A stretch of 64,000 bases of DNA from Bacteroidales bacterium. GTDB taxonomy: Bacteria; Bacteroidota; Bacteroidia; Bacteroidales; UBA3824. The position numbers and the translations under genes were made by a program. Positions 127 through 59,050 of this stretch are shown here, one piece after another (the first letter of the stretch is position 1; each line of letters opens with the position of its first letter). The stretch lies in NCBI GenBank assembly GCA_017417315.1, contig JAFPZK010000024.1, positions 1 through 64,000 of the forward strand, read 5' to 3'. The notes beneath the pieces were generated by a model, which saw nothing but the letters and a program-made list of their open reading frames with translations, was not told the DNA's origin and ran no database searches.

Positions 127-1143
127 TTGCGAAACTTGAGTTATTTAAGGTTGATAACTGAAAATAAAATTGGTGCGGATGAAGAAAAAGCATACAATTT
201 ATGTGTCAGTCAATATAGTCAGATAGATGCCGAACACGCCAAAGCAACTAAAAAAGAAACAGCGTTCAGAGATTATGGTAATACCGTATTTAGAGTTTTG
301 CAACTAACGGGTTTTGTTACAATCGACTATAAAGGCGTAATGTTGTTGTCGCCAAATGAAAATAGAATCGATTTTTATAATAGTCTGAAAAGCAAATCTT
401 TCTCTATCACTGAATCTGCAAAAGAAAATGAAGATGAATATTTTGAGCAAATTGGAAGTTTTGATTCGTCATTTGAGCAATTTGTTCAGTCGTTCCGTGA
501 AACAGAAAATTTATCCACGAATGAATATAACGTAAAGATTCCCCAAATTATTAAATCATATAATTTGAATAAAGAGACTATCGAGCAAGCGTTGATTAAA
601 ATATCGTCAGGAAACGTCAAGGGAAAAGATTGTTTTTGGTTTATTCAAGACCCTGTGAAATTTGAATTTTTACTTACCCTTTTTGTATATTCATACTATG
701 GAGATAAATTCATATATAAACCGAATTATATTTGCGACGAATCTGGTATACCCTATTCCCACGCGCCTGGCAATATTGGAGACATCGAGATTTACAACAA
801 AGAAAAATATTGGCTGATAGAAGCCACTTTGATAAAGGCTAAGACTCAACAGATTAATAATGAAACTGTTAATTTGTTTCGCCATATTGATGAAACTCGA
901 AATGGCAGTAAGTATTTGACCTTAGTTGCTCCATACATTCATGATGACACGCGTATGATTTTTAATGTGGCAACAGTCATAACCTTAATGCAAAACAATA
1001 AGTCTAAACTTTCGTCTATATCCCAATCAACAGACGATTTTGTATCAGCAATAAAGCAGAAAGATTATTTTGTTGATACTGACCGCAAAACACGATTATT
1101 TATTAGTGAATTGAAGAAAACATTAGCACAAGTTATTGATTGA
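127..1143 (+). CDS. AlwI-like type II restriction endonuclease, C-terminal portion
   Basis: Open from a TTG at 127, 338 residues. The part around residues 213-245 reads like the cleavage domain of the AlwI/BspD6I group: GD at 218-219, then the strand WLIEAT with Glu232, then NLFRHID, which fits a PD-(D/E)XK site in which the lysine is replaced (E-x-T). Residues 50-90 resemble the winged-helix region that precedes it in the family. Family members are usually 500-600 residues, so the N-terminal DNA-recognition part is missing from this frame; the frame ending at 121 probably holds it. No good start codon or ribosome site lies before residue 1. No cognate methylase is visible; it would lie upstream of the window. 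The assignment rests on recalled motifs. Confidence 0.55.
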   Translation: MRNLSYLRLITENKIGADEEKAYNLCVSQYSQIDAEHAKATKKETAFRDYGNTVFRVLQLTGFVTIDYKGVMLLSPNENRIDFYNSLKSKSFSITESAKENEDEYFEQIGSFDSSFEQFVQSFRETENLSTNEYNVKIPQIIKSYNLNKETIEQALIKISSGNVKGKDCFWFIQDPVKFEFLLTLFVYSYYGDKFIYKPNYICDESGIPYSHAPGNIGDIEIYNKEKYWLIEATLIKAKTQQINNETVNLFRHIDETRNGSKYLTLVAPYIHDDTRMIFNVATVITLMQNNKSKLSSISQSTDDFVSAIKQKDYFVDTDRKTRLFISELKKTLAQVID

Positions 1144-1304
1144 TTTTTCTATTAGATTCATTGCTTTGTACGCTCTATGCCAACCTTGAGGGGTATATGG
1201 TATGAATAACGATTTAGTTGCGAAAACGGTGGCATATATTTAAAGGACTATATAAAAACTGTATTATTTATTTAAAATGCTCCTTGTTAGTTAAAAAACT
1301 TTTA

Positions 1305-1313
1305 TAAATTTGC
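1305..1313 (+). promoter_or_regulatory. Bacteroidota -7 box for the 73-aa gene
   Basis: TAAATTTGC matches TAnnTTTGC and lies 41 bp before the start codon at 1354. The rest of the 210-bp gap after the endonuclease gene is AT-rich and shows nothing else. Confidence 0.5.
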
Positions 1314-1353
1314 TGTACGCAATTTGTTAGACATCTGAAAAAATTTTACAATT

Positions 1354-1575
1354 ATGCCCAGAGTATTTGAAATCACCCCGAAGCGCATCAAGCGCACCAA
1401 CAACACGGTTCTTACGCCCGAAATGAAAGTAACCGTTACGACAAAACTCAACACTTTCAATCCGTTTTACAACGGTGCGGTAGAAGTTAAAGAGGCGTAT
1501 ATGAGACTTTATGGTTTTGATTATAAGAAAGCATGTTGCACAGAGAGCGACTTCACGTTTAGGGCGTTGGATTAG
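1354..1575 (+). CDS. Conserved small protein starting MPRVFEITPKR (unknown function)
   Basis: A 73-residue protein with a basic N-terminus (MPRVFEITPKRIKRTNNT), a Val/Thr-rich middle and a C-terminal stretch with KKACC at about 58-62. It has no signal peptide or membrane segment. I recall similar unnamed small proteins in Bacteroidales but no function. A TAnnTTTGC promoter sits at 1305. Its last 17 bp overlap the convergent 3' end of the DUF1016 gene. The first 69 bp (1354-1422) recur at 2828-2896 with four mismatches, on the far side of that gene, and the homology stops abruptly inside the coding region. This shows a second copy was once present or was copied there. Confidence 0.7.
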   Translation: MPRVFEITPKRIKRTNNTVLTPEMKVTVTTKLNTFNPFYNGAVEVKEAYMRLYGFDYKKACCTESDFTFRALD

Positions 1576-2752
1576 AGAGTTTCTTCAATTTTCCACCATA
1601 TTTTGCCACTTCCTTTTTGAGCCAATCGGTCAGGAGGGATTCTTTGGGTAATGAAAGCCAATATTTTTGGATTAGGAGATTGTCGTCGATGCCGTCGGTG
1701 GCGTATTTTACAAGTTCCTTGCCCGCTTCGGTGCACATCAGTATTCCAACGGGAGGATTGTCATCGGACTGCATTATATTGTGCTTATAATAAGATAGAT
1801 ATAGGTTCATTTGTGCAACGTCGGAGTAACTTAGTTTTTCGGCTTTTAAATCTATCAGCACGTGGCATTTAAGTATTCTGTTGTAAAACACCAAGTCGCA
1901 ATAAAAATACTCGTCGTCAACCAAAATTCTTTTTTGCCGAGTTTCAAAACAAAAGCCCGTGCCAAGTTCCATCATAAATTCTTCAAGATGCTCAATTACA
2001 GCCTCTTCCAAATCCGATTCTTTTACAATTTCCTTGTCGCTCAATCCCAAAAACTCATAAACGTATGGCGTTTTGATTATATCTTCCAAGTCGGTTTTTT
2101 CGGCATTTGACTGAACATAACGGCTCATTTTTTCGGGGTTGCGGCTTATTCCGCTGCGAATGTAGTAGTTGGTGTCAATTTGGCGTTTTAGTTCGCGACT
2201 TGTCCACGTACCTTTGATGGCTTCGAGTTCATAAAACACCCTTGCAATCGGATCTTCCACGGGCAACAGTAATGCAAAGTGAGTGAAAGACAAATGTTTA
2301 AACAAAACGTCAGGCGGCATTTGTAATTCATCATCCAATTGGGCAATCAGTGATTGCCCAATTTGGCAACCACTGGTTGCCAAATCTTCTGACTTACAAT
2401 TATTCTCTGATAGACAGAGTGTTATGTCGCCAATCAACACATTTTCGGAAGCAAATTCGTTTACAACGAAATCATAAATTGGCTGCGACAACATAGGAAA
2501 TTCTTGATAAAACTGCCGATACAGTTTCAAATTTCTGTACGACAATGACTTGGCATTAAGACGCTCCGCCATTTTTTGCAGAGTCTTTTCGCCGTACTTG
2601 GCGCGGTCGCTGCCGTTTTGTTCGTAATTGACAATATAAAACCCTGTCAACCAATTTCTTGCGGTCAAATTTCTATTGATGGCTTTCGCCGCATTGTCTG
2701 TAAAAACTTGGTTGATTTTTTCAACTTGTTGTATTAGTGAGCCGAAATCCAT
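1559..2752 (-). CDS. DUF1016 (YhcG) family PD-(D/E)XK nuclease-like protein
   Basis: 397 residues from the ATG at 2752; the frame is open further upstream, but MDFGSLIQQVEKINQVF is the natural family start and a -7 box lies just ahead at 2770. The N-terminal half matches DUF1016_N (ARNWLTGFYIV, then YGEKTLQKMAERL and YRNLKLYRQFYQEFP). The C-terminal half is the YhcG nuclease-like domain with CDLVFY followed by HVLIDLKAEK, so Asp stands where the family usually has Glu in the (D/E)-x-K pair. Such proteins occur alone or in type I restriction and phage-defence loci; the natural substrate is not firmly known. It lies between two copies of the MPRVFEITPKR repeat, which suggests the gene was inserted there or that the repeats flanked a duplication. 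Confidence 0.85.
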   Translation of the reverse strand: MDFGSLIQQVEKINQVFTDNAAKAINRNLTARNWLTGFYIVNYEQNGSDRAKYGEKTLQKMAERLNAKSLSYRNLKLYRQFYQEFPMLSQPIYDFVVNEFASENVLIGDITLCLSENNCKSEDLATSGCQIGQSLIAQLDDELQMPPDVLFKHLSFTHFALLLPVEDPIARVFYELEAIKGTWTSRELKRQIDTNYYIRSGISRNPEKMSRYVQSNAEKTDLEDIIKTPYVYEFLGLSDKEIVKESDLEEAVIEHLEEFMMELGTGFCFETRQKRILVDDEYFYCDLVFYNRILKCHVLIDLKAEKLSYSDVAQMNLYLSYYKHNIMQSDDNPPVGILMCTEAGKELVKYATDGIDDNLLIQKYWLSLPKESLLTDWLKKEVAKYGGKLKKLSNPTP

Positions 2753-2769
2753 ATTGTTAAAATTTTGCA

Positions 2770-2777
2770 CAAAGATA
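2770..2777 (-). promoter_or_regulatory. -7 box for the DUF1016 gene
   Basis: On the minus strand this reads TATCTTTG, a match to TAnnTTTG, 18 bp before the ATG at 2752. The short leader supports that start. Confidence 0.5.
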
Positions 2778-2827
2778 ATTATTTTTTGAAATTTCAACTG
2801 CATTATTTAAATTTTAACCCCATTATT

Positions 2828-2896
2828 ATGCCCCGAGTATTTGAAATCACCCCGAAACGCATTAAACGCACCAACAACACGGTTCTTACGCCCGAA
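2828..2896 (+). repeat. Truncated copy of the MPRVFEITPKR gene start
   Basis: 65 of 69 bp match 1354-1422, beginning at the ATG and ending at codon 23 (..TVLTPE). One base after the homology ends is the stop codon of the minus-strand 76-aa gene (2898-2900). Three of the four differences are silent, so this was once a selected coding copy rather than random similarity. It has no recognisable promoter and is probably dead. Confidence 0.75.
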
Positions 2897-2897
2897 T

Positions 2898-3128
2898 TCA
2901 GCAAAACCGCCCTTCTGTTAACTCATTGTCCAAAAAAGAATATACATAACCGGGGCTTTGGTAATAAAGCCCTGTGTTTTTATCGCTTAGGTGCAAAAAA
3001 GTTTCACTATTATAAACAGTATCTAAGGCTTCATTTATAGAATAATGCCAACGATTCATAACTATCATTACAAGTTCGGAAAGCATATCCTCTTGCATTA
3101 TTTTTATTTGAGAATCAGTAAGTTTCAT
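2898..3128 (-). CDS. 76-aa protein paired with DUF3791, candidate toxin-antitoxin partner
   Basis: 76 residues with a helical N-terminus (QIKIMQEDMLSELVMIVMNR) and a conserved-looking tail (TGLYYQSPGYVYSFLDNEL). It lies 62 bp downstream of the DUF3791 gene on the same strand and probably shares its promoter. DUF3791 proteins are best known as partners of DUF3990 in putative toxin-antitoxin pairs; here the partner is this shorter family, which I recall only as hypothetical in Bacteroidales. There is no signal peptide. The frame is intact although its partner is broken. Its stop codon abuts the truncated MPRVFEITPKR repeat, so the module's edge coincides with a rearrangement junction. Confidence 0.65.
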   Translation of the reverse strand: MKLTDSQIKIMQEDMLSELVMIVMNRWHYSINEALDTVYNSETFLHLSDKNTGLYYQSPGYVYSFLDNELTEGRFC

Positions 3129-3190
3129 AATCTTTGAAGTTTAGAAAGTGCCAAATTAGTCCCGAAAAAATATTGATAAGTTATAAAGTA

Positions 3191-3425
3191 TCATACGCTG
3201 TATATAAGTTTTCCTCCGTTTCTATTGCAGATAGTTGATAAAGAACTGACCGTTTCTTCAAACGATAAAGTATGAAGAACGTCGTAAAATTCCGACAAAT
3301 AATCCATACCTTTAAACCGTTTCAAATAGTTGTAGGCTTGTTTTTCTCCGATGGAGAATTTTGCGGCAAATTCCTGCAATCAAAGCGATTATGTATTTTA
3401 ATTTGTTGGTTTCACTGCGAGACAT
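3191..3425 (-). pseudogene. DUF3791 protein gene, frameshifted
   Basis: From ATG 3425 the frame reads MSRSETNKLKYIIALI and then leaves the family sequence. One base later another frame continues QEFAAKFSIGEKQAYNYLKR, then GMDYLSEFYDVLHTLSFEET to the stop at 3191. Removing one G near 3379-3382 restores a 77-residue protein that matches the DUF3791 pattern (helical start, YNYL, FYDVLHT). A promoter box lies at 3447. The damage is one base, so recent mutation, sequencing error or translational slippage are all possible. If it is real, the neighbouring 76-aa protein lacks its partner. Confidence 0.7.
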
Positions 3426-3446
3426 TTTTTTCCCATTTAATTATGC

Positions 3447-3455
3447 GCAAAGATA
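3447..3455 (-). promoter_or_regulatory. -7 box for the DUF3791 / 76-aa gene pair
   Basis: The minus strand reads TATCTTTGC, 22 bp before the ATG at 3425. A second TATCTTTG lies about 10 bp further upstream. Confidence 0.5.
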
Positions 3456-3488
3456 ACAAAGATATTGTCATTTAACAAAAAAAATAAT

Positions 3489-3497
3489 TACCTTTGC
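3489..3497 (+). promoter_or_regulatory. -7 box for the nitroreductase gene
   Basis: TACCTTTGC, a match to TAnnTTTGC, 32 bp before the ATG at 3529. It is divergent from the DUF3791 promoter. Confidence 0.55.
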
Positions 3498-3528
3498 CGT
3501 GAAAATTAATGCATAAAAAAGTATACCT

Positions 3529-4041
3529 ATGGAATTTTTACAACTTGTAAAAGAGCGTTATTCGTGCCGAATGCTCACCGACAGAGCCGTTGAACAGGAA
3601 AAAATCGACAAAATAATCGAATGTGCTAATTTTGCGCCGACGGGTGTTAACAAACAGCCTTTTAAACTCTGGCTTATGCAAAGCGAAGAGGCTGTCGAAA
3701 ACATCAAGAAAGTAACCACTTACACTTTCGGAGCGGGACTTTTTCTCGTTGTCGGCGGCAACCCCAAAGAAGCGTGGGTAAGAAGTTTCGACAACAGAAA
3801 TATTGCCGACATCGATGCTTCAATCGTTGCGACACATATTATGCTTGCCATTCACGACCTCGGGCTTGCTTCTACTTGGGTGGGAAAATTCGATGCGCCA
3901 ATGCTTAAAACCATTTACCCCGAAATGGCTGATTACGACCTTATTGCAATTTTCCCGATTGGATACCCCGCTGATAATGCTCAGCCCGGACCGAGACATT
4001 TTACGAGAAAACAAGTGGACGAAATCGTTGTGAAAAAATAA
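3529..4041 (+). CDS. Nitroreductase family protein (FMN-dependent)
   Basis: 170 residues, the usual length for short nitroreductases. The N-terminal KERYSCRML is the FMN phosphate-binding R-x-S-x-R signature, followed by CANFAPTGVNKQPFKLWL, the conserved A-P-T/S-x-x-N-x-Q-P segment. The C-terminal part has DIDASIVATHIMLAIHDLGL and the terminal PGPRHFTRK typical of the family. The enzyme should be a cytosolic flavoprotein that reduces nitro groups or quinones with NAD(P)H; the physiological substrate cannot be read. It is followed after 3 bp by the MbnP-like gene, so the two are probably co-transcribed. Confidence 0.88.
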   Translation: MEFLQLVKERYSCRMLTDRAVEQEKIDKIIECANFAPTGVNKQPFKLWLMQSEEAVENIKKVTTYTFGAGLFLVVGGNPKEAWVRSFDNRNIADIDASIVATHIMLAIHDLGLASTWVGKFDAPMLKTIYPEMADYDLIAIFPIGYPADNAQPGPRHFTRKQVDEIVVKK

Positions 4042-4044
4042 ACC

Positions 4045-4761
4045 ATGCGGAAAATATTTTTATTAATTCTTTCAATTCTGTCTTGCGTAGAAGTTTGGGC
4101 GCAGGACGGAATTGTTTTTACTTTTTCATGCGGCGACAAACCGCTGAAACTAAGCGAGATGATTTACAAATCTAAACGCGGTTTGACGTTTCAGGTAAGT
4201 CAGGTTCAGTATTTTGTGTCGGATGTTTCCGTTATTTTCAAAGACAAAACCGTCAAAAAAATTGAAAATTCCGTTCATTATGTTGATGTTGAAATTCCAA
4301 GCACTTTAAAATGGATTCCCTCGGAGGATTTCAACTTGCAAAATGCTGACAGTTTGGAGTTTACATTCGGTTTAGATTCGCTTCAAAACCGCAGTTACAG
4401 ATTCAGAAATCCGCCTGAAAATCTGATGTTTTGGCCCGATTATCTCGGCGGCGGTTATCATTACATGAAGACCAACATTTTGTATCTTGACACCGAAAAC
4501 CAAATCAACGCTTTTAATTGTCATATCGGTCGCGGGCAGGTTTATAATGCTGACAATGAACCCGTTGAATATATCAACAATGATTTCCGCGTTAAAATTC
4601 CGATTAAACGTCAAGGCAACAATGCCGTCATAAATCTTGATATTTCAACAATGTTCGACTATCCACATGCCGAACTTTTCACTGATTATCACGGCATTAT
4701 GAACAATCAAAAAGCCATGAAAACCTTTGCCGAAAATATAAAGGCAGCGTTTGAAAAATAA
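4045..4761 (+). CDS. MbnP-like exported protein
   Basis: 238 residues with a cleavable signal peptide (MRKIFLLILSILSCVEVWAQ, cut after about residue 20). The remainder follows the MbnP-like pattern: an early beta segment, VQYFVSDVSVIF (the family L/QFYVSN element), HYVDVE, LEFTFGLDSLQNRS, and ENLMFWPDYLGGGYHYMK, equivalent to the GMYWxWxxGY segment. In characterised relatives this domain is periplasmic and linked to copper or methanobactin handling; Bacteroidota homologues are mostly uncharacterised. No MbnH-type cytochrome partner lies nearby. Only 3 bp separate it from the nitroreductase stop codon. Confidence 0.75.
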   Translation: MRKIFLLILSILSCVEVWAQDGIVFTFSCGDKPLKLSEMIYKSKRGLTFQVSQVQYFVSDVSVIFKDKTVKKIENSVHYVDVEIPSTLKWIPSEDFNLQNADSLEFTFGLDSLQNRSYRFRNPPENLMFWPDYLGGGYHYMKTNILYLDTENQINAFNCHIGRGQVYNADNEPVEYINNDFRVKIPIKRQGNNAVINLDISTMFDYPHAELFTDYHGIMNNQKAMKTFAENIKAAFEK

Positions 4762-4765
4762 GCGA

Positions 4766-4870
4766 TTTTATACCCGAAAGGTTATAAACTACCTTTAAAA
4801 TTACCATTTTATACCCGATAAGATATAAAACGGTAATTTTTATCCCATTTTATACCCGAAATGTGATAAA
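4766..4870 (+). promoter_or_regulatory. Three operator-like repeats before hipBST
   Basis: Each copy begins TTTTATACCC, at 4766, 4807 and 4848, exactly 41 bp apart (about four helical turns), and each ends in ATAAA. The first copy is an imperfect palindrome (TATACCC..AGGTTATA). The array lies immediately before the hipB -7 box. HipB proteins bind spaced palindromes in their own promoters, so this is the expected autoregulatory operator; that reading is inference. Confidence 0.75.
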
Positions 4871-4877
4871 TTGTATT

Positions 4878-4886
4878 TATATTTGC
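4878..4886 (+). promoter_or_regulatory. -7 box for hipBST
   Basis: TATATTTGC, 22 bp before the hipB ATG and 8 bp after the third operator-like repeat, so bound repressor could block it. Confidence 0.6.
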
Positions 4887-4907
4887 CGCAGAAAAAACGT
4901 AATTGTT

Positions 4908-5132
4908 ATGAAAGAACTCACTAAACTATCGCAATTTGTTAAAACGATGCGGAAACTGCGCGGACTTACGCAGCAGGATTTGTCCGATAAATCCGGCGTG
5001 GGATTAAGGTTTGTGCGCGATTTGGAACAAGGCAAAAAAACGCTCAGAATGGATAAGGTTAACGAGGTGCTTTTGCTTTTCGGAGCTGAACTCGGCGTTA
5101 CGGAAATAGAACGCAAAAACGTTGAAATATGA
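4908..5132 (+). CDS. hipB: HipB-like HTH antitoxin/repressor
   Basis: 74 residues from ATG 4908. It has a compact lambda-repressor-type helix-turn-helix: LSQFVKTMRKLRGLTQQDLS, then KSGVGLRFVRDLEQGKKT, the usual recognition-helix end, then MDKVNEVLLLFGAELGV. The length matches HipB. It is the first gene of a three-gene operon; its TGA overlaps the hipS ATG (ATGA), implying translational coupling. In HipBST systems HipB is the DNA-binding autorepressor. The three 41-bp-spaced repeats upstream are the likely sites. The frame is open further upstream, but that extension has no family similarity. Confidence 0.88.
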   Translation: MKELTKLSQFVKTMRKLRGLTQQDLSDKSGVGLRFVRDLEQGKKTLRMDKVNEVLLLFGAELGVTEIERKNVEI

Positions 5133-5449
5133 GAAAAGCAGATGTAATGTTTCGGGATATAATTGCTGGTCAACTCGTTGAAGATGAAAATGGTTATACT
5201 TTTACATACGACAACAAATATTTGTCGTCGCCTAATGCAGTGCCAATAAGTCTTACAATGCCGCTGACTAATAAGCCGCTCAGTTCAAAGGTTCTGTTTC
5301 CGTTTTTTGACGGTCTGATTCCCGAAGGCTGGCTGTTGGACATTACTGTCAAAAATTGGAAAATCAATCCTAACGACCGTATGTCGCTGTTACTGACGTG
5401 CTGCAAAGATTGTATCGGTGCAGTGGGAATTGTTGAATCAAAAAATTAA
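5129..5449 (+). CDS. hipS: HipS-like protein (HipA N-subdomain as a separate polypeptide)
   Basis: 106 residues corresponding to the N-terminal subdomain 1 of HipA: RDIIAGQLVEDENGYTFTYD, SPNAVPISLTMPLTNKPLSS, VLFPFFDGLIPEGWLLD, then CKDCIGAVGIVE. In ordinary HipBA these residues are fused to the kinase. In the E. coli O127 HipBST system the equivalent separate protein, HipS, is the antitoxin for the HipT kinase. Here it overlaps hipB by 4 bp and ends 5 bp before hipT. The split is not a recent frameshift, because each part has its own start and the C-terminal gene begins with its own zinc-ribbon-like segment. Confidence 0.85.
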   Translation: MRKADVMFRDIIAGQLVEDENGYTFTYDNKYLSSPNAVPISLTMPLTNKPLSSKVLFPFFDGLIPEGWLLDITVKNWKINPNDRMSLLLTCCKDCIGAVGIVESKN

Positions 5450-5454
5450 CAGCT

Positions 5455-6420
5455 ATGAGCAAATGTTTGTGTTGTTATAAGGAATTGGAGGACGGACAAA
5501 TTGATTATCATCCCGCCTGCGCAAAAAAGTTTTTCAGGAGTGCAAACATTCCGCTACTTCCGTATTCAAAGGCGGATATTAACGAATTGGCAAAACAGGT
5601 AATCATCAGTAAAACAGCAGTTACTGGGGTGCAACCGAAATTGTCAGTTGACCTTACCAAAGGCGGCAAAGATGAAACACAAAAACTAACGATTGTCGGG
5701 CTTTGGGGGCGTTATATCCTCAAACCGAAAACCGAAAAATATCCTTGGCTGCCCGAAGACGAAGACCTGACTATGCACTTAGCGGAAATTGCAAAAATCA
5801 AAGTGGTTCCTCATTGTCTGATTCGTTTTAGCGATGGCGAACTCACGTATATAACCCGTCGAGTAGACCGTTCTGATGACGGTACAAAATTTCCGATGGA
5901 AGATGCTTGTCAGTTGTCGCAACGCTCTTCCGCCGACAAATACAAGTCATCATACGAAAACATAGCAAAACTTATCGTGAAATATTCGTCTAATCCGCAA
6001 CTTGATTTGGTTAATTTTTGGGAAATAACGGTTTTTTCATGGTTGACTGGTAATTCGGATATGCACTTAAAAAATTATTCGCTTTTGAGTACGACACCGG
6101 GAAAATATTGGCTTTCACCGGCTTACGACTTATTAAACGTTCATCTTATTTTTGATGATTCGGAAGAACTTGCGCTGACTTTGGATGGTAAAAAGCGGAA
6201 ACTTACGCGTAAAAATTTTGTCCGCGCCATGCAAAATTCCGGACTGACAGAAAAAGTTATCGAAAACATTTTCAGTAAATTCATAAAAGTAGTTCCGAAA
6301 TGGAACGCCTTTATTGATCAAAGTTTTTTGCCCAACGACCTCAAAACAAAATACAAAGAAATTTTAGCAAAACGCTGTGAATTGCTTTTTCCTAAAATTT
6401 TTTCTACCTTTGCCTCGTAA
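5455..6420 (+). CDS. hipT: HipT-like serine/threonine kinase toxin (HipA C-terminal kinase)
   Basis: 321 residues. It begins with a Cys-rich segment (CLCCYKE...HPAC) common in Bacteroidota HipA-like proteins, perhaps a zinc site. The kinase core follows: a loop with SKTAVTGVQPKLS at 52-64 (the Gly-rich/autophosphorylation region), YILKPKT, ITRRVDR, the catalytic GNSDMHLKN with Asp202, and the metal-binding SPAYDLLN with Asp225. HipA and HipT kinases phosphorylate aminoacyl-tRNA synthetases (GltX, TrpS), blocking translation; the target here is unknown. It should be neutralised by HipS, HipB or autophosphorylation. The C-terminal coding end contains the -7 box of the next gene. Confidence 0.87.
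   Translation: MSKCLCCYKELEDGQIDYHPACAKKFFRSANIPLLPYSKADINELAKQVIISKTAVTGVQPKLSVDLTKGGKDETQKLTIVGLWGRYILKPKTEKYPWLPEDEDLTMHLAEIAKIKVVPHCLIRFSDGELTYITRRVDRSDDGTKFPMEDACQLSQRSSADKYKSSYENIAKLIVKYSSNPQLDLVNFWEITVFSWLTGNSDMHLKNYSLLSTTPGKYWLSPAYDLLNVHLIFDDSEELALTLDGKKRKLTRKNFVRAMQNSGLTEKVIENIFSKFIKVVPKWNAFIDQSFLPNDLKTKYKEILAKRCELLFPKIFSTFAS
6405..6413 (+). promoter_or_regulatory. -7 box for the lipoprotein gene, inside the end of hipT
   Basis: TACCTTTGC, 33 bp before the lipoprotein ATG at 6446. The downstream genes therefore need not depend on hipBST transcription. Confidence 0.55.
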
Positions 6421-6445
6421 AAACAACTTAAAAATAATTACCGAT

Positions 6446-8029
6446 ATGAAAAAAATTACAACTTTACTTGCTGTTTTGCCGATTCTTGCATCTTGCGGCG
6501 GCAATACGACGAATAATCAAAACACGTCTAACGAACAACCCAAACAGGAAACCTCAGCGGAGAAATCAACGCCTTCTCCGGCTTACAACATCGCATACGA
6601 AGCGGCTATAAAAATCAGTGCCGCTAACAAAAATTATCCGACTGTTGATACCTCTGACAAAACGAAAGCAGTTTTTTCGGGGCTTACTTCCGACGAATAC
6701 GACCTCGACAAATCAACGTCCGTTATCTGCAAAAACTATTCTTCCGGCGGATATTTGATTGTTTATCAAGTAGATGAAAGCGGTGTTCTCGGCGACGGTT
6801 TTATTGAAGACATCAAAGAATTTAAAGTTTTCTCTTATAAAGACGGCGTTTTGACAGAGAAAAACGACCTTCTGCCAAAACCTACTTTCAAAGATTTTTC
6901 TGCCTCTGACGAATTATTGGTCGCAAATACCGAAAACGACTTTTCTAACAATCTTAAAAGCGGTTACAATTATAAAATCAGCGGTGATAAAATCATTGCC
7001 GGTTTCGACGAATACGCATGGATAGAGTACGCTTGGGACGGTTCAAAATTTGTCGCTAACGGTTCGCCGGAAAATTGCTCGATGAATGTCCTCAACGGCG
7101 ACGGCTTAGCATCGCTGAAACTTGGCGGCAAAGTTCCCGAAACTCTCGGCGGTTTCGACAAAAAACAAAACGGTAACAACGTAGTTTTCAGTCAGAAAGG
7201 CGAAAAAGCATTTCAACTTGCTTTAAGCAACGACGGCAAAATCGACACGATAACCGTGTTCTCAAAAAAATACACTTATTCGCTTTGCTGCACGGGCGGT
7301 TGCGTTAATTTCGGCGTTGGATATTCGCCTTCTTACGATGTTATGGACTGTAAATTCCAGTTCAATCCCGACCAAACCGACGATTATTATGTTTGTAAAG
7401 ACGGCGTTTTTGTCAGAACAATGCAATTTGATAATAGCGTAATCGAATTTTACGGTTCAAAAAATACAATCACGAATTTAAAATACGATTTTGGAAAACG
7501 CATAACGATGGCTGACAAACCCAAATTTGCGGAATACGACAAAGACCCCGTAAAACTGATAAAACTTTACGCAAAAGGCGGCTTTTGTCAGACTTGCGCC
7601 CAAATGTCCGACAAAGAGAAAACAGACAAAATTCGTGCAATGTACAATTCAGTTGCCTCAGACAAAAATCTCAAAAAGAAAAGCGCGGAAACCGAAGACG
7701 AAGAATCGGGCTTTATCGTTGAATACAATTATTACTATCAAGACGGCAAACTCGTGATGGTGGAATGTTCTTGGGGCGATAGTTGGATGCAGAATTACAA
7801 ACTCTATTTAAGCGGCAACAGCGTGTATTTCTGCCTTGTACATCATAATTATCCTGACGGAACGGAAGCCTTTGAACGCTATTATTTATGCGGCAACAAG
7901 ATTTTCAAGGCTATTGACAAGGACAAAAAAGAGACCGTCAATCCTACGGGCGACGACATCACCGACTTAGAAAAACGTATGACGGAAATTTTAAACGAGG
8001 CATTAAAATTAGAAGAAAAGGCAAAATAA
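6446..8029 (+). CDS. Large lipoprotein of unknown function
   Basis: 527 residues from ATG 6446; an earlier in-frame start would extend into hipT and lose the signal peptide. MKKITTLLAVLPILASCGG is a type II signal peptide with lipobox LASC. A Ser/Thr/Gln-rich linker follows to about residue 50. The mature part is Asp/Lys/Tyr-rich with repeated beta-like segments (FVANGSPEN, NLKYDFGKRITM, CLVHHNYPDG) and several cysteines around residues 280-395. I recognise no named domain. It should be lipid-anchored in the outer membrane or periplasm. The gene is followed after 2 bp by the C_GCAxxG_C_C gene, so the two are co-transcribed. Confidence 0.8.
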   Translation: MKKITTLLAVLPILASCGGNTTNNQNTSNEQPKQETSAEKSTPSPAYNIAYEAAIKISAANKNYPTVDTSDKTKAVFSGLTSDEYDLDKSTSVICKNYSSGGYLIVYQVDESGVLGDGFIEDIKEFKVFSYKDGVLTEKNDLLPKPTFKDFSASDELLVANTENDFSNNLKSGYNYKISGDKIIAGFDEYAWIEYAWDGSKFVANGSPENCSMNVLNGDGLASLKLGGKVPETLGGFDKKQNGNNVVFSQKGEKAFQLALSNDGKIDTITVFSKKYTYSLCCTGGCVNFGVGYSPSYDVMDCKFQFNPDQTDDYYVCKDGVFVRTMQFDNSVIEFYGSKNTITNLKYDFGKRITMADKPKFAEYDKDPVKLIKLYAKGGFCQTCAQMSDKEKTDKIRAMYNSVASDKNLKKKSAETEDEESGFIVEYNYYYQDGKLVMVECSWGDSWMQNYKLYLSGNSVYFCLVHHNYPDGTEAFERYYLCGNKIFKAIDKDKKETVNPTGDDITDLEKRMTEILNEALKLEEKAK

Positions 8030-8031
8030 AA

Positions 8032-8421
8032 ATGACAATAGAAGAACGTGCTAAATACGGCTATGAATTAAAACAAAATGGCGTGTGCAACTGTGCAATG
8101 GCTGTTTTGAAATCTTTTTCGGACAAATTGGGCATTGACGAGGCGATGCTAAAAAATCTTTCATCGGGTTTTGCAGCCGGTATGGGCGGAATGGAAGGCA
8201 CATGCGGTGCAATTGTCGGTGCGGTGATAGTTGCCGGAGTTTTAAACGGCGGTATGGGTACGCCGAAAATTTCGCGCCGGATAGTTCAAAAATTCAGAGA
8301 AAAATCCGGTGCGACAATTTGCAAAGATTTGAAAACCATGACAGACGGCAAACCGCTTTGCGAATGTCCGCAATGTGTCTACAACGGTATTATCGCCTTA
8401 GGAGAAAGTATGGAAATTTAA
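8032..8421 (+). CDS. C_GCAxxG_C_C family protein
   Basis: 129 residues. The family name describes its cysteines and they are here: an early Cys (GVCNCAMAV), the G-x-x-G-M-G-G-M-E-G-T-C-G-A-x-x-G segment (FAAGMGGMEGTCGAIVGAV), and C-terminal CKDL plus CECPQCV. Members are probably redox-active or metal-binding cytosolic proteins; no reaction is established. It starts 2 bp after the lipoprotein stop codon and precedes the aminotransferase by 24 bp. Confidence 0.85.
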   Translation: MTIEERAKYGYELKQNGVCNCAMAVLKSFSDKLGIDEAMLKNLSSGFAAGMGGMEGTCGAIVGAVIVAGVLNGGMGTPKISRRIVQKFREKSGATICKDLKTMTDGKPLCECPQCVYNGIIALGESMEI

Positions 8422-8445
8422 TTCAACCAAATCGTAAATAAAAAA

Positions 8446-9573
8446 ATGCTTGAAGATATTACACCTTTTATAGTGATGGAGGTGCTTGAAAAGGCACAAG
8501 AGATGGAACGCAATGGCATTGACATCATTCACATGGAAGTTGGCGAGCCGGATTTTGACGTGCCGCCATGTGTCAGGGACGCCGTCATTAATGCGGTGAG
8601 TACCGGCAAGACACATTACACACATTCGCTCGGCAATCCTACGTTGCGTTCCCGAATCGCCTCATTATACAAAAAGGAGTATAATGTTGATTTTTCGCCC
8701 GAAAATGTTGTGGTAACGTCGGGTTCGTCGCCTGCGATATTGATGGCGTTGCGGACGTTGTGCGATGTCGGCGACGAGGTGTTGGTGTTCAATCCGGGAT
8801 ACGCTTGTTACGCAAATTTTGTGAGGGCTGTCAATGCCGTGCCGGTTATCATAGACCTTAATCCCCAAGACGGTTTCCGCATTGACATAGAGGAGGTTAA
8901 GAAGAAGATAACGCCCAAGACCAAGGCAATATTCATCAATTCGCCGTCCAATCCCTTTGGCGCGTTGATAGAGCCGGAGGTGATGAAACAAATAGCGGAT
9001 TTGTCCATTACGATAATATCCGACGAAATTTATCACGGGCTTGTTTATGAAGGCAAGGCACATTCTATTTTGGAATTTACTGACAATGCTTTCGTACTCA
9101 ACGGATTCAGCAAAAGGTTTGCAATGACGGGATTGCGGCTCGGTTATCTTGTTGCACCCGCTAAATACATGCGGACATTGCAGATATTGCAGCAAAACCT
9201 CTTTATCTGTGCGCCGAGTGATGCTCAGATGGGTGGCATAGCCGCAATAGAACACGCCGATGTCGATGTCAGCCGCATGTGCGCGATATACAACGAGCGC
9301 AGAAAATTCATAGTGGAGGGTTTGAAACGGCTCGGCTTCAAAATCTGGACTGAACCTGTGGGCGCGTTCTACGTGTTTGCCGATGCGAGAAAGTTCGCCG
9401 CCGACACTTACAAATTTGCCTTCGAGATACTCGAAAATGCCCATGTCGGAGTTACGCCGGGCATTGACTTCGGCTCGCAGGGGCAGGGATTCTTGCGGTT
9501 TAGTTACGCCAATTCGTTGGAAAATATCCGCGAGGGTCTCGCAAGGTTAGAGATTTATTTGAAGACATTATAA
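8446..9573 (+). CDS. Class I/II PLP-dependent aminotransferase
   Basis: 375 residues, usual size for fold-type I aspartate/aromatic aminotransferases. Visible motifs: HMEVGEPDFDVPP near the N-terminus, TSGSSPAILMA (PLP phosphate cup), NSPSNPFGALI with the cofactor-contacting Asn, ISDEIYHGLVYEG with the pyridine-binding Asp, and NGFSKRFAMTGLRLGYL with the Schiff-base Lys and the family Arg. The C-terminal FLRFSYANS carries the substrate carboxylate Arg. The substrate cannot be decided between aspartate, alanine-like and others. Codon use is visibly richer in G-ending codons than in the genes before it. Confidence 0.9.
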   Translation: MLEDITPFIVMEVLEKAQEMERNGIDIIHMEVGEPDFDVPPCVRDAVINAVSTGKTHYTHSLGNPTLRSRIASLYKKEYNVDFSPENVVVTSGSSPAILMALRTLCDVGDEVLVFNPGYACYANFVRAVNAVPVIIDLNPQDGFRIDIEEVKKKITPKTKAIFINSPSNPFGALIEPEVMKQIADLSITIISDEIYHGLVYEGKAHSILEFTDNAFVLNGFSKRFAMTGLRLGYLVAPAKYMRTLQILQQNLFICAPSDAQMGGIAAIEHADVDVSRMCAIYNERRKFIVEGLKRLGFKIWTEPVGAFYVFADARKFAADTYKFAFEILENAHVGVTPGIDFGSQGQGFLRFSYANSLENIREGLARLEIYLKTL

Positions 9574-9633
9574 AAAAGATACTCAATTTTGTCCGCAAAA
9601 TATTTTATCAATCCAACATATTAATAATAAGTA

Positions 9634-9732
9634 TTTTACAAACAAAAATCTTGGAATGGTGTAAAAATCGTTTGGAAAAATCCTTGGAATGGTGTAATTT
9701 TACACAAACAAAAATCTTGGAATGGTGCAAAA
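9634..9732 (+). repeat. 33-bp-period repeat array before DUF4143 ATPase gene 1
   Basis: CTTGGAATGGTG recurs at 9650, 9683 and 9716, exactly 33 bp apart, up to the ATG at 9732. Copies at 9634-9666 and 9698-9732 are bracketed by TTTTACA(C) and TGTAAAA or GTGCAAAA, so they are dyads; GTGTAATTTTACAC at 9693-9706 is a further perfect dyad. Because 33 is a multiple of three, the array reads in frame as LEWC every 11 residues from 9651, but the ATPase family starts at 9732, so I treat it as regulatory or leader sequence. Confidence 0.7.
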
Positions 9733-11084
9733 TGGAAAGAAAAATTTACAATAAGTTGCTTAAATGGAAGCATGAAGACAAAGGCTCGGTGGCTTTGCTA
9801 ATTGACGGCGCAAGGCGTGTCGGCAAAAGTTATATCGTTGAAAACTTTGCAAAACGTGAGTACAAGACGTACATTCTCATTGATTTTGCTAAGGCGGAAG
9901 ATGACGTGAAAAACTACTTCGTCAATTACAAGAATGACTATGACGGACTTTTCAGAAGTTTGTCATTGCATTATAGAACAAAACTTTATGAAAGGGAGTC
10001 TTTGATAATATTTGACGAAGTGCAGTTTTGTCCGCAGGCGAGGGCTGCAATCAAGTATCTTGTCGCAGACCACCGTTACGATTATATTGAAACGGGTTCG
10101 CTCGTCAGCATCAATTCTAATGTCGCCGACATCCTCATCCCTTCTGAGGAACGCAGGATAAAGATGTATCCTATGGATTTTGAGGAGTTTCTTTGGGCGA
10201 TGGGCGACGATATGATGATGCCTTACGTAAAGGAATGTTTTGAGAAGCAGAAACCTTTGGGCGAAAGCCTTCACCGCAGGGTGATAGATTATTTCCGTCA
10301 ATACCTTATTGTTGGCGGTATGCCTCAGGCTGTTGCGGAATACGTTGAAACAAAGAGTTTTGAACGCGCCGACACTAAAAAACGCGACATTCTTGACCTT
10401 TACCGTGCCGACATCAGGAAATACGCCAAAGGTTATGAAAGCAAGGTTACAAAAATTTTTGACACTTTGCCGGGACAGTTGCAAAAGCACGAAAAAAAAT
10501 TCCGACTTTCGGCTCTGAAAGAGAACGCAAGGTTCAGGGATTACGAAAGTTCGTTCCTTTGGTTGGAGGATGCAATGGTGGTCAACGTCTGTTACGCCGC
10601 CTCCGAGCCGTCGGCAGGACTGAGGCTCAAACAGGACGATTCGACGTTCAAGTGCTATATGGGCGACACGGGTCTGTTGGTAAGTATGGCTTTCAACGAA
10701 GCCGAAACCGCCAAAGAAGAGATTTTCCGTAAACTTATGCTTTCAAGGCTCGAAATCAACGAAGGAATGTTGGTGGAAAACATTGTAGCCCAAATGCTCA
10801 GGGCATCAGGACACGAATTGTACTTTTTTTCCAACTATTCCAAAACCGATTCCACGCAGACAATGGAAATAGATTTTCTTGTGCGCAAAAACAACGTTAC
10901 AAGCCGTCATAACATTTCGCCGATAGAAGTGAAATCCACAAAAAACTACACCACAGTTTCACTCGAAAAATTTCGACAGAAATATTCGTCGGCATTGTCA
11001 ACACCATACATCATCCACACCAAGGATTTGAAAGTGGAGAACGGAATCGTGTATATGCCGCTGTATATGACGCCGTTGCTGTAA
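9732..11084 (+). CDS. AAA ATPase with DUF4143 domain (1)
   Basis: 450 residues from ATG 9732 (MERKIYNKLLKW). Walker A is DGARRVGKS, Walker B LIIFDEVQF, and the sensor region ETGSLVS. The middle PMDFEEFLWAMGDD and VVGGMPQ-like IVGGMPQAVAEYV segments are typical. The C-terminal DUF4143 part has CYMGDTGLLVSMAF and a PD-(D/E)XK-like MEIDFLVRKN followed by ISPIEVKS. These proteins are widespread in anaerobes; their function is unproven, with defence or toxin-antitoxin-like roles proposed. The start at 9651 would add 27 residues made of LEWC repeats and is unlikely to be family sequence. A repeat array immediately precedes the start. Confidence 0.85.
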   Translation: MERKIYNKLLKWKHEDKGSVALLIDGARRVGKSYIVENFAKREYKTYILIDFAKAEDDVKNYFVNYKNDYDGLFRSLSLHYRTKLYERESLIIFDEVQFCPQARAAIKYLVADHRYDYIETGSLVSINSNVADILIPSEERRIKMYPMDFEEFLWAMGDDMMMPYVKECFEKQKPLGESLHRRVIDYFRQYLIVGGMPQAVAEYVETKSFERADTKKRDILDLYRADIRKYAKGYESKVTKIFDTLPGQLQKHEKKFRLSALKENARFRDYESSFLWLEDAMVVNVCYAASEPSAGLRLKQDDSTFKCYMGDTGLLVSMAFNEAETAKEEIFRKLMLSRLEINEGMLVENIVAQMLRASGHELYFFSNYSKTDSTQTMEIDFLVRKNNVTSRHNISPIEVKSTKNYTTVSLEKFRQKYSSALSTPYIIHTKDLKVENGIVYMPLYMTPLL

Positions 11085-11100
11085 ATGTATACACACGGCT

Positions 11101-11208
11101 TTAAAACTCCGGCACGGGTTCGTTATAAAGTTTTACAAAAACCTCACGCGCAGGAACATAAATTATGTTACCGTTTTCATCTCTTTGAACAACGGTTTGG
11201 TTTAACAT
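11101..11208 (-). CDS. Possible 35-aa protein downstream of the Fic remnant
   Basis: ATG at 11208 and stop at 11101 give MLNQTVVQRDENGNIIYVPA followed by REVFVKLYNEPVPEF. It reads like real protein (balanced composition, DENGNIIYVPARE) rather than a chance frame and lies 25 bp downstream of the Fic remnant on the same strand. It could be a small partner or the tail of a deleted gene. I cannot name a family. Confidence 0.35.
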   Translation of the reverse strand: MLNQTVVQRDENGNIIYVPAREVFVKLYNEPVPEF

Positions 11209-11232
11209 TCTTCGACGGGGCGTTTTTTTGCT

Positions 11233-11850
11233 TTAAACTTTACGCTTTTGCAGTTCTTGGAATAATGCCGCGCCCTTAGCCGTCAGAAGGTATTTTTGAC
11301 GGGGGTGGCGGGGCGAGTTAGGGTATAACATACGGACATAACCTTCGTTGATGGCTGGCGTAAGATAATTATACAAGAAACTGACACGGTCTTTCATACC
11401 GACAACAGACATCATTGTTTTTACTGATTTTTCGTCTTCTCCTATTGCTTGTAGCAGTTTTATAATGTTTGAATTTTCGGTATGTAACTTATCTTGTACT
11501 TGTTGGGTACTTGTTGGGTACTTGTTGGGTGCTTGTAATGTAGAAAAATTTGGCTGCGATTTTAATTCTTCAGTGGCGTTAATGTGGAGATAACGGTTTC
11601 GCAAATCCCAACCGTCGCCGAGCAATAAATTGCGGAAAAAACGTTCCAAGAATATCGGACTGTAATCAATGTTTTTCAATGCGTTGCGGTAGTTGGCACG
11701 TACCAATGCGTTGCGAAAATACCACGAATGTTCGGCAAATATATCGTTCTCAACGTTAAAGCCTAAATCTCTCAAATACAAAATAGTAAACACCGCCGTC
11801 GTCCGTGTGTTGCCTTCCCTAAAAGCGTGAATCTGCCATATTCCCGACAC
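11233..11850 (-). pseudogene. Fic family protein lacking its N-terminal part
   Basis: About 205 residues beginning just before the active-site motif: GIWQIHAFREGNTRTTAVF, a Fic core HxFxxGNxRxxA with Ala replacing the usual Pro. Then RNALVRANYRNA and a C-terminal winged-helix region (VGMKDRVSFLYNYLTPAINE, YLLTAKGAALF). Full-length relatives have roughly 100 more residues before the motif. Here the frame has only GTG at 11850 and no promoter, and the complete ATPase gene ends 45 bp upstream, so the 5' part is gone. Intact Fic enzymes transfer AMP or similar groups to target proteins; this copy should be inactive. It contains an 11-bp tandem repeat. Confidence 0.8.
11496..11536 (+). repeat. 11-bp tandem repeat within the Fic remnant
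   Basis: GTACTTGTTGG is repeated perfectly at 11496, 11507 and 11518, with a degenerate fourth unit (GTGCTTGT) at 11529. On the coding strand it gives NKYPTSTQQVQ. As 11 is not a multiple of three, loss or gain of a single unit shifts the frame, while three units equal 11 codons. Confidence 0.85.
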
Positions 11851-11895
11851 AAATCTTTTTGCAAATTTACAGACTTTTTGAAATTAACATCTTTT

Positions 11896-13200
11896 TTATT
11901 CCATCTTTCCCAATCCGAACATAAATCCATACAACGGAAAGTTGTACACGTTATTGGTCTGGTTGTAGGGTAGGGCGGAGATTTTGCAGGCGTAGTCGGG
12001 CTGATATTTTTGACAGAAGAAAGCAAAACTCTTGGCTTGGAGGTTTTCGCCAGCCTTTACTTCGATGGGGACGGCGTGTCCGTCGCGTTGAATCACAAAA
12101 TCCACTTCGTTTGTGCTGCGCTCGTTGGTCCAATAGCCGATGTAATCACAATTCAAAGCGGTAAGTTCCTGCATTACAAACTGTTCAGTAATTGCGCCCT
12201 TGAACTCCGTGAACACTCTGCCGCCGTCGGCTACAACATCAAAACTCAATCCCGTGGCGGCGCACAACAATCCTGTGTCCACCATATAAAGTTTGAACAC
12301 AGCCGAATCCTGATATGCTTTGAGCGGCATTTTGGGAACTTCAACGCGCTGCGATTTCAATATCAATCCGCAGTTAATCAGCCACATAATCGCCAATTCA
12401 AAATCCTTGGCACGCGCACCCTCGCGCAATACTCCATATATGAATTTTTTGTTTTCCTTTGATAATTGCGATGGCAGTGAATCCCAAACCATCGAAACTC
12501 GCGGTACTTGAAGGTCTGGTATATGCTTCGAGAAATCAGCCTGATATGAGTTAAGAATGTCGCGTTGTTTGTTCCTGATTGCAAAATAATCTTGTGTATC
12601 TACCCATTTCTGAACAACTTCGGGCATACCGCCAATCACCATATAAGTGCGCACAAGGCGGATGAGTTCGTCGTGGAATGTTTTGAGAATGTTCCATTGA
12701 CAATTAGTTAACGCATTGTACATCAACTCTTTGCCCATTGCCAAAAGGAACTCGCCAAATGTCATCGGGTGAAGTTCCAAAAAATTGACCTTGCCAACGG
12801 GGAACGAGCGGTTTTCGTGCATTGCGATGCCAAGAAGCGACCCTGCGGCAACGACGGCATACTGAGGGGCGTTTTCGCAAAAATATTTCAACGACGTTAC
12901 GCCGCCCTCCACCGCCTGAATTTCGTCAAAAATTATTAGTGTGTTGGCGGCATCTATTTTTTTGCCGTGGTAAAGTTCTATTGTAGAAAGAATACGCTGA
13001 GTATCAAAGTCTTCTATAAATAAATCCTTAAAACGCTTTTCGTATTCAAAGTTGATATAGATTGTGCTGGCAAAATTTCTTCTGCCAAATTCTTTCATCA
13101 GCCAAGTTTTGCCTGTCTGCCTTGCGCCTTTGATAATCAAAGGCTTGCGGTCTGTTGCCGCCTTCCATTCCGCTAATTGTTTAAATGCCGTGCGTTCCAT
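11896..13200 (-). CDS. AAA ATPase with DUF4143 domain (2)
   Basis: 434 residues from ATG 13200 (MERTAFKQLAEWK). Walker A IKGARQTGKT, Walker B LIIFDEIQ, sensor AAGSLLGIAM, then LHPMTFGEFLLAMG, VIGGMPEVVQKWV and the DUF4143 C-terminus with LYMVDTGLLCAATG and the nuclease-like NEVDFVIQRDG followed by VPIEVKAGENLQ. It belongs to the same family as the gene at 9732 but to a different subgroup (GARQTGKT against GARRVGKS). The function is unproven. It is divergent from gyrA; the gap carries a four-unit palindrome array starting 74 bp before its ATG. Confidence 0.88.
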   Translation of the reverse strand: MERTAFKQLAEWKAATDRKPLIIKGARQTGKTWLMKEFGRRNFASTIYINFEYEKRFKDLFIEDFDTQRILSTIELYHGKKIDAANTLIIFDEIQAVEGGVTSLKYFCENAPQYAVVAAGSLLGIAMHENRSFPVGKVNFLELHPMTFGEFLLAMGKELMYNALTNCQWNILKTFHDELIRLVRTYMVIGGMPEVVQKWVDTQDYFAIRNKQRDILNSYQADFSKHIPDLQVPRVSMVWDSLPSQLSKENKKFIYGVLREGARAKDFELAIMWLINCGLILKSQRVEVPKMPLKAYQDSAVFKLYMVDTGLLCAATGLSFDVVADGGRVFTEFKGAITEQFVMQELTALNCDYIGYWTNERSTNEVDFVIQRDGHAVPIEVKAGENLQAKSFAFFCQKYQPDYACKISALPYNQTNNVYNFPLYGFMFGLGKME

Positions 13201-13273
13201 ATTGCGTTATGAATTTTTAATTAATTTCACGGCAAATTTAAAGACTTTTTTGGAAACTAACAAACGTTTCTAT

Positions 13274-13404
13274 GATAAAAGTGTTATAAAATACATTTTT
13301 ATCTATGATAAAAGTGTTGTCTAACTACATTTTTATCTATGATAAAAGTGTTGTCTAACTACATTTTTATCGCGATAAAAGTGTAGACCGACTACATTTT
13401 TATC
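13274..13404 (-). repeat. Four iterated 30-31-bp palindromes before DUF4143 ATPase gene 2
   Basis: Copies at 13274-13303, 13307-13337, 13341-13371 and 13374-13404. Each begins GATAAAAGTG and ends CATTTTTATC, which are near-complementary arms around an 10-11-bp centre (GTTGTCTAA- or GTAGACCGA-like). The starts are 33, 34 and 33 bp apart with only 2-3 bp between copies, so it is not a CRISPR. The array lies between the divergent ATPase and gyrA genes and is closer to the ATPase start (74 bp) than to the gyrA start (147 bp). Likely an operator array or a series of hairpins in the ATPase leader. Apart from this array and the gyrA promoter, the 350-bp gap shows nothing else. Confidence 0.8.
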
Positions 13405-13506
13405 ATAAAAACTTAAAATCGTCGCGGCATTTTTTTTACCTTATTATAAACAACATTTTTTCCTGAAAAAATCCCCTTATTTTTTTGTTTTTTCGCAAAA
13501 AAGCCG

Positions 13507-51498: not shown

Positions 51499-51509
51499 TT
51501 TTTTAATAA

Positions 51510-51537
51510 TTGACAATTGACAATTGACAATTGACAA
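51510..51537 (+). repeat. Four perfect tandem TTGACAA heptamers
   Basis: Units at 51510, 51517, 51524 and 51531, followed by degenerate AATTAATCAATT-type sequence to about 51565. They are reverse complements of the TTGTCAA arrays at 51978-52043, so the two arrays face each other across the four-helix-bundle gene. Confidence 0.85.
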
Positions 51538-51597
51538 TGAAGCCAATTAATCAATTATCAATTGTATGGTTAATATTTTATTTATTTATCTTAATAA

Positions 51598-51960: not shown

Positions 51961-51977
51961 AGTTCAGTATGTTATAA

Positions 51978-52043
51978 TTGTCAACTGTCAATTGTCAATT
52001 GATTGCCACTTAGCATTGTCAATTGTCAACTGTCAATTGTCAA
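51978..52043 (+). repeat. Two arrays of YTGTCAA heptamers
   Basis: Units TTGTCAA, CTGTCAA, TTGTCAA at 51978-51998, and TTGTCAA, TTGTCAA, CTGTCAA, TTGTCAA at 52016-52043. They fill the gap between the four-helix gene start (51960) and the araD stop (52048). Confidence 0.85.
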
Positions 52044-52047
52044 TTGC

Positions 52048-56785: not shown

Positions 56786-56787
56786 AA

Positions 56788-58678: not shown

Positions 58679-58892
58679 TCACCCCTCAAACAAACTATCC
58701 ATCGTGATACATTTTTGAATATGTCCGCTGTATTCGTTGGGGGTTAAACCGTAAGTAGTTATGAGTGTGAGGTGCGGATTTAAAATTATGGCTTTAAACT
58801 TAAAATTTGTTGTGTATTTTTTGAAAAAAAACGTTGTACAAATCATCTAACTTGCTCTTTTCCAACTCTCTACCTATAATTAACTCTCTCAT
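58679..58892 (-). pseudogene. AAA ATPase remnant: both ends present, middle deleted
   Basis: From ATG 58892 the frame reads MRELIIGRELEKSKLDDLYN, the start of a common Bacteroidota AAA ATPase family (RELIIGRE.EK..L..LY). It changes frame at a run of eight A (8 T on the coding strand) and continues to the stop at 58679 as KAIILNPHLTLITTYGLTPN, then EYSGHIQKCITMDSLFEG, the usual C-terminus of the same family (ITTYGLKxNEYSG.IQ..VTMDDLF). Walker A, Walker B and about 300 residues are missing. Its upstream 33-bp-period array is still in place. Confidence 0.8.
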
Positions 58893-58899
58893 GCCGTTC

Positions 58900-58953
58900 A
58901 AAATTATTCCGCCGCAATTGCATAAAAATACCCTATTCCGGCGGAATAATTTT
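58900..58953. repeat. 15-bp perfect inverted repeat before the ATPase remnant
   Basis: AAAATTATTCCGCCG (58900-58914) and CGGCGGAATAATTTT (58939-58953) are exact reverse complements with a 24-bp spacer, 8 bp upstream of the remnant's ATG. Operator or leader hairpin. Confidence 0.85.
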
Positions 58954-58955
58954 AC

Positions 58956-59050
58956 AAAAGTTTCCGTTATATCAGAAACTTTTACCCAAAAAGTTTCCTT
59001 TATAGCGGAAACTTTTATCCTAAATCTTTCCTTTATAGCGGAAATTTTCA
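58956..59050 (-). repeat. Three 29-bp palindromes with 33-bp period before the ATPase remnant
   Basis: Copies at 58956-58984, 58989-59017 and 59022-59050. The first two begin AAAAGTTTCC and end GAAACTTTTA, the third is degenerate (AAATCTTTCC...GGAAATTTTCA). The centre is TTTATAGC or TTATATCA. The architecture matches the array at 13274-13404 although the sequence is different. The array also reads in frame with the remnant as 11-residue repeats (KVSAIKETF), but lies upstream of its family start. Confidence 0.8.

Follow-up and report, generated by a model that had tools for sequence, protein, structure and literature searches.

Genes for DUF4143-type ATPases in a Bacteroidales genome and in relatives from several phyla are preceded by short arrays of DNA repeats with a period of about 33 bp, and each array is probably the operator of the ATPase that it precedes, which would bind its own array and autoregulate its promoter. 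This reading is built on computational results: the arrays and their period, their tie to ATPase genes, the fixed placement of the -7 box relative to the repeats in many loci of Bacteroidota and the covariation of array bases with ATPase residues. PADLOC lists ATPases of this kind as the phage defence candidate PDC-S01 and their archaeal-type relatives as PDC-S27, both unvalidated according to the accessible parts of two surveys (PMC12988326, PMC13356809). In the same parts, PDC-S01 is reported to rank fourth in frequency among the (putative) defences of prokaryotes and first among single loci in rumen genomes, no mechanism having been described for it (PMC12988326, PMC13356809), and its protection against phages is given as unvalidated in the literature (PMC12988326). 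An earlier note on this DNA, which described the ATPases as lacking an established function, was right that their function is unproven, but as candidate defences in PADLOC they are not wholly unannotated.

The window, by which we mean the whole stretch of 64,000 nucleotides analyzed here, encodes two such ATPases, each with an array in front of it:

9634-9732, + strand: putative operator array, a three-copy 33-bp direct repeat in front of the 450-aa ATPase
9650-9661, + strand: core copy 1, CTTGGAATGGTG, exact match
9683-9694, + strand: core copy 2, CTTGGAATGGTG, exact match
9716-9727, + strand: core copy 3, CTTGGAATGGTG, exact match
9732-11084, + strand: ATPase with AAA_14, winged helix and DUF4143/PD-(D/E)XK domains, 450 aa, PDC-S01 (Pfam, PADLOC)
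11896-13200, - strand: second AAA_14 and DUF4143 ATPase, 434 aa, PDC-S01 (Pfam, PADLOC)
13269-13404, - strand: palindromic array of four 34-bp units, located 68 bp upstream of the second ATPase (TRF-type call, 34 bp x 4.1)

In the first array, the core recurs in two exact 33-bp steps and its last copy ends four bases 5' of the ATG at 9732, as the earlier note had stated for an exact recurrence running up to the start codon; TRF agrees (33 bp x 2.9). A whole-genome search located this 12-mer at just three places in 3,936,900 bases, all of them in this array, and returned zero matches to the reversed pattern; the 3.94-Mb genome thus holds no trans target for the exact core elsewhere. The repeats had also been described as dyads with TTTTACA/TGTAAAA arms. 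These arms are present around the array, without in-register repetition, and the array itself repeats an asymmetric core in direct orientation, with an RNA-fold z of 0.17 (9634-9731 against shuffles). The dyad description does apply to the array before the second ATPase, which had been reported at 13274-13404 and is real, and to another one at 58956-59057; both consist of palindromic units, with RNA-fold z values of -7.6 and -6.0, respectively.

Between the two ATPase genes lies a truncated Fic gene (11233-11850) in which just the final 25 positions of the domain remain and which contains an 11-bp repeat, GTACTTGTTGG, in 3.7 copies at 11496-11536. Elsewhere in the window, defence- or toxin-like genes encode an AlwI-type restriction enzyme, a YhcG nuclease and a HipA-like protein (127-6420), and a type III-like restriction pair consists of ResIII helicase and N6/N4 methylase genes (54101-58338), with 24-bp coding repeats at 55190-55404. 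Repeats of 7 bp (AATTGAC/AATTGTC) occur at 51508-51538 and 51976-52046, and the same repeats, of the AATTGACAGTTGACA type, are also found before other genes of the genome.

Both window ATPases match Pfam AAA_14 and DUF4143 above the cut-offs and the PADLOC PDC-S01 profiles over their full length (1.8e-115 for 9732-11081 and 1.1e-176 for 11899-13200); NCBIfam and PHROGs searches yielded nothing informative, and a sequence search against solved structures gave no match. An ORC/archaeal-ATPase-like P-loop domain is followed by a winged helix and then by a PD-(D/E)XK nuclease-type domain. The Walker A/B and PD-(D/E)XK residues are kept, with R28, G31, K32, S33, D95, E96, D381, E399 and K401 invariant in 80 ATPase sequences. 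In the AlphaFold model (pLDDT 91), the recognition helix of the winged helix spans residues 268-280, residues 267 and 269 stand at its start, and residues 369-371 belong to a loop (369-377) preceding the PD-(D/E)XK catalytic strand. Fold neighbours identified with Foldseek are archaeal Walker ATPases, Apaf-1 and ORC/Cdc6.

The association of arrays with these genes is not peculiar to the window. The host genome contains 53 DUF4143 matches, and a sample of 1.54 Mb (39% of the genome, 1196 ORFs, with start codons taken as the first ATG and possibly wrong for a few genes) served as background. With an upstream self-match score of at least 18 at a lag of 31-35 as the definition of an array, direct repeats precede 28 of the 49 genes for DUF4143 ATPases, as against 5 of the 1090 other genes that do not adjoin an ATPase (Fisher p 9e-38), so that arrays of this type are far commoner upstream of these ATPases, contrary to the outcome that the earlier note had named as its refutation. 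Two of the five background genes are pieces of DUF4143 ATPases, one flanks a broken ATPase, and the other two arrays precede hsdM and cas6; the array before cas6 is a two-copy 33-bp repeat (G000:C40:126786-126850). A minority of DUF4143 members are without clear arrays, among them the full-length genes C8:45724 and C17:196636.

Relatives beyond this genome were sought with a protein-pattern search blind to the upstream DNA; a profile of 20 diverse paralogues was too variable for searching the collection, and a closer set of 8 worked. It produced 80 named relatives (53-64% identity) from Bacteroidales, Clostridia, Bacilli, Spirochaetales, Kiritimatiellae and one alphaproteobacterium. The best upstream self-match falls at a lag of 32-35 in 77 of the 80, compared with 40 of 400 shuffles (10%) and 27 of 220 flanks, and a score of at least 16 is reached in 57 of the 80, always at a lag of 32-35, compared with none of 400 dinucleotide shuffles and 1 of 220 same-locus flanks. 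A motif fit gives the shared core as AAAATCTTGAAAAnGTGTA and, in 78 of 81 loci, finds two or more core sites following each other at 31-36 bp, no core being found in L223 and L233; an array has two to six cores, mostly three, 33-34 bp (about three turns) apart. Members that are more distantly related, from across the order and from viral contigs, reach a score of at least 16 in 18 of 40 cases, all at a lag of 32-33 and with other cores. Arrays of the same lag (32-33), again with other cores, also accompany plasmid members in Segatella copri, Agathobacter, Collinsella, Acinetobacter, Vibrio and Criblamydia, which adds Gammaproteobacteria, Chlamydiota and Actinomycetota, with weak arrays in plasmid members L323, L324 and L330. 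The array sequences, described earlier as private, do differ from one paralogue to another in the same genome. Members of one clade, however, keep their core even across phyla, and it drifts along with the protein.

The repeats exceed background at the ATPase gene's own promoter in the genome sample, in the 80 relatives and in the -7 register of the Bacteroidota loci. A TAnnTTTG -7 box begins right after the GTG of a core in 17 of the 42 loci from Bacteroidota. Which repeat copy carries the box varies between loci, and the array therefore straddles the promoter; in many loci the promoter has cores within it or upstream of it, and in some loci the array follows the -7 box and precedes the start codon. 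A -7 box could not be clearly identified for the array at 9634-9732.

The earlier note had proposed a comparison of array sequence with ATPase clade, and such a comparison, carried out at the level of single bases and residues, succeeded: core bases track residues 369/371 and 265/267. Across 76 loci, mutual information was computed between core bases and 450 protein columns, and two pairs stand out, core position 10 with residue 371 (0.64) and position 11 with residue 369 (0.53), the next value being 0.30. G at op10 is paired with R/K371 in 50 of 53 loci and A at op10 with a deleted residue 371 in 15 of 17, while G at op11 is paired with Y369 in 15 of 15. G at op16 and G at op18 go with R/K267 and R/K269, respectively, in 74 of 74, and the two exceptions for each residue have lost the G. 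These pairings are chemically sensible. On a tree built without the covarying columns, the independent pairs stand at 6:0 and 7:0, with tree-corrected p values, to be read as nominal, of 0.016 and 0.031; the recognition-helix pairs 16/267 and 18/269 are represented by one or two independent changes each. In whole-protein tree scans, residues 371, 369, 267 and 265 come first for op10, op11, op15=G and op15=C, respectively; the first two belong to the nuclease-domain loop and 265/267 to the recognition helix of the winged helix. Among held-out proteins, the op11 rule holds in 6 of 6 and the op10 rule in 4 of 6, with C67 (op10=G, V371) as an exception and C40:103495 as an ambiguous case; the held-out L281, with A267, has T at op16. 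Each ATPase is linked to its own array, in keeping with the operator proposed in the earlier note, and most likely it is the ATPase itself that reads the array preceding its gene. In the 450-aa ATPase of the window, the residues predicted to do so are N265, R267, R269, Y369 and K371.

We propose that the N-terminus of the recognition helix (R267, R269 and their neighbours) would read the nGTG half of the 12-bp core, and the loop 368-371 of the nuclease-type domain its TTGA half. Several protomers would be held side by side and in phase on or next to their own promoter, and the ATPase would therefore limit its own synthesis. Physical binding, contact through two elements, cooperative occupancy and repression rather than activation are what this model predicts, repression being assumed from the position of the arrays. 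Control of its own gene is probably the purpose for which the ATPase reads the array. More speculatively, the ATP state or infection might release the ATPase, with the nuclease domain acting afterwards. It is conceivable, although we regard it as doubtful, that PDC-S01 and the related PDC-S27 make up a very large set of self-reading switches that are mutually orthogonal, every protein being parked on an array private to it and silencing its own gene, and that un-parking by ATP state, infection or array loss frees both the promoter and the nuclease-type effector.

The main rival to autoregulation is an array that the ATPase reads as a loading or assembly platform, comparable to ORC/Cdc6 boxes, iterons or parC, on which an oligomer is nucleated that then acts on DNA, promoter control being secondary. 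The fold relatives include ORC/Cdc6 bound to origin DNA, the constant 33-34 bp phase and the predominance of three copies suggest a fixed multimer, and the catalytic D381, E399 and K401 are invariant in the 80 sequences. However, the arrays are situated at the gene's own promoter, with a fixed -7 register in many Bacteroidota loci, and we consider a platform unlikely. A role as origin or centromere is likewise unlikely because there are dozens of unlinked chromosomal copies with different cores. Archaeal Orc1/Cdc6 and ORC similarly combine a P-loop ATPase with a winged helix and repeated boxes (Foldseek 2v1u, 2qby, 7jgr), but the fold match is distant (TM about 0.25), and the arrays described here are promoter-linked and their ATPases carry an extra nuclease-type domain. 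The best fold matches, the archaeal Walker ATPases 2QEN and 2FNA (TM 0.4-0.5), have 15% identity, and their entry titles mention no array.

Binding of the arrays by a separate regulator instead of the ATPase has a precedent in the nearest described arrangement, that of RptR, a small repressor that binds three direct repeats in the promoter of a restriction-modification/DarTG2 defence island and whose release on phage infection has been proposed (PMC12255303). RptR is a separate small homodimer recognizing TAGCTA within 9-bp repeats (PMC12255303), whereas here a 450-aa ATPase-nuclease apparently reads 12-bp cores 33 bp apart that differ between paralogues. At the window locus the array directly precedes the ATPase frame, with no separate small regulator gene beside the repeats. 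The covariation of core bases with ATPase residues in two regions predicted to contact DNA, the change of core from paralogue to paralogue and a pairing that holds across phyla make an independent regulator very improbable. Promoters of toxin-antitoxin systems and controller (C) proteins are likewise compact units with their own feedback operator (general knowledge; summarised in PMC12255303), but the loci described here have no separate antitoxin or C protein, one protein being both reader and putative effector.

Slightly less probable still is a mobile or homing unit formed by array and ATPase, with the repeats as its ends or target sites. In its favour are the range of 2-53 DUF4143 matches per genome within one genus, the orphan arrays and broken genes of the window, the spread across phyla and the absence of the whole 8033-13472 stretch from two genomes of the genus (G005 and G009), in which gyrA comes immediately after the gene at 6377-8029; in G003 the place is taken by other DNA. 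Yet the absent stretch contains other genes and does not end at an array, arrays flank the gene on one side only, and the one empty site examined, by gyrA, has neither a target duplication nor a terminal-repeat junction. Finally, the structured RNA leader or attenuator that the earlier note had offered as an alternative can be dismissed as barely credible: folding is expected of palindromic arrays like the one at 13269-13404 (z -7.6) and some arrays do lie between the -7 box and the start codon, but the array at 9634-9732 does not fold beyond shuffles and in many loci the cores are upstream of or inside the promoter.

Near the end of the window, at about 58.7-59.2 kb, is an ATPase graveyard with an internally deleted ATPase, its own inverted repeat and two orphan arrays:

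58682-58892, - strand: archaeal-type ATPase remnant (PF01637), residues 1-20 and 446-481 of a C40:102049-like protein
58900-58953, - strand: inverted repeat AAAATTATTCCGCCG / CGGCGGAATAATTTT in front of the remnant
58956-59057, no strand assigned: orphan palindromic array, 33 bp x 3.1, of the DUF4143 type found before C51:148286 and C49:32002
59129-59192, + strand: orphan promoter and two cores, left over from a C40:103495-type ATPase

The remnant is an internally deleted relative of C40:102049, and the inverted repeat is of the same kind as at that gene and at other archaeal-type ATPases. The adjacent array, reported earlier at 58956-59050 as preceding the remnant, is real, but it does not belong to the remnant: it matches the arrays of C51:148286 and C49:32002, which are of a different DUF4143 clade. 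The orphan noted at 59144-59215 does contain two cores, CTCGAAAAGGTG (59147-59158) and CTCGAAATGGTG (59181-59192), and with the -7-like TAATATTG at 59129-59136 it is what remains, promoter and array, of an ATPase of the C40:103495 type that has lost its reading frame beginning with the start codon. Just past the window, another orphan 33-bp array (G000:C77:65181-65266) has the core CTCAAAAAGGTG, a core also found in the clade with residue 371 deleted, and no ORF assigned alongside.

Among archaeal-type ATPases (PF01637) of the host genome, 26 of 30 have an upstream inverted-repeat score of at least 12, many of them doubled at 51-54 bp, compared with 121 of 1090 other genes. Across the order just 3 of 15 score at least 15, and this link is therefore weaker and limited to some members. 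The archaeal-type ATPases L111-L140 have private inverted repeats before their promoters, often two at a spacing of 51-54 bp, and the orthologous MYYREL ATPases L141, L143, L144, L147 and L149 have one common promoter palindrome with compensating changes in its arms.

The PDC-S01 and PDC-S27 surveys deal with the same proteins and describe their ATPase and PD-(D/E)XK domains, abundance and distribution, and their accessible parts make no mention of operator arrays (PMC12988326, PMC13356809). A literature search, with subscription papers and preprints outside its range, likewise found no description of repeats or operators tied to these ATPases, in agreement with the earlier note, which knew of none. 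Through the arrays, the DNA target of each member is known and unique in its genome, and a contact code is predicted; binding, regulation and triggering can therefore be tested directly. The paralogues of a genome, dozens in number and with different cores, constitute a natural series for the divergence of protein-DNA specificity, which apparently uses the nuclease-domain loop together with the winged helix. In genome annotation, an array of about 33-bp period can point to a member of the family, intact or lost, whether the array precedes an ATPase or stands as an orphan. If the more doubtful reading as self-reading switches is true, one of the commonest prokaryotic defence candidates still lacking an explanation would combine sensor, repressor and effector in one gene, and its protein-DNA code would be evolvable.
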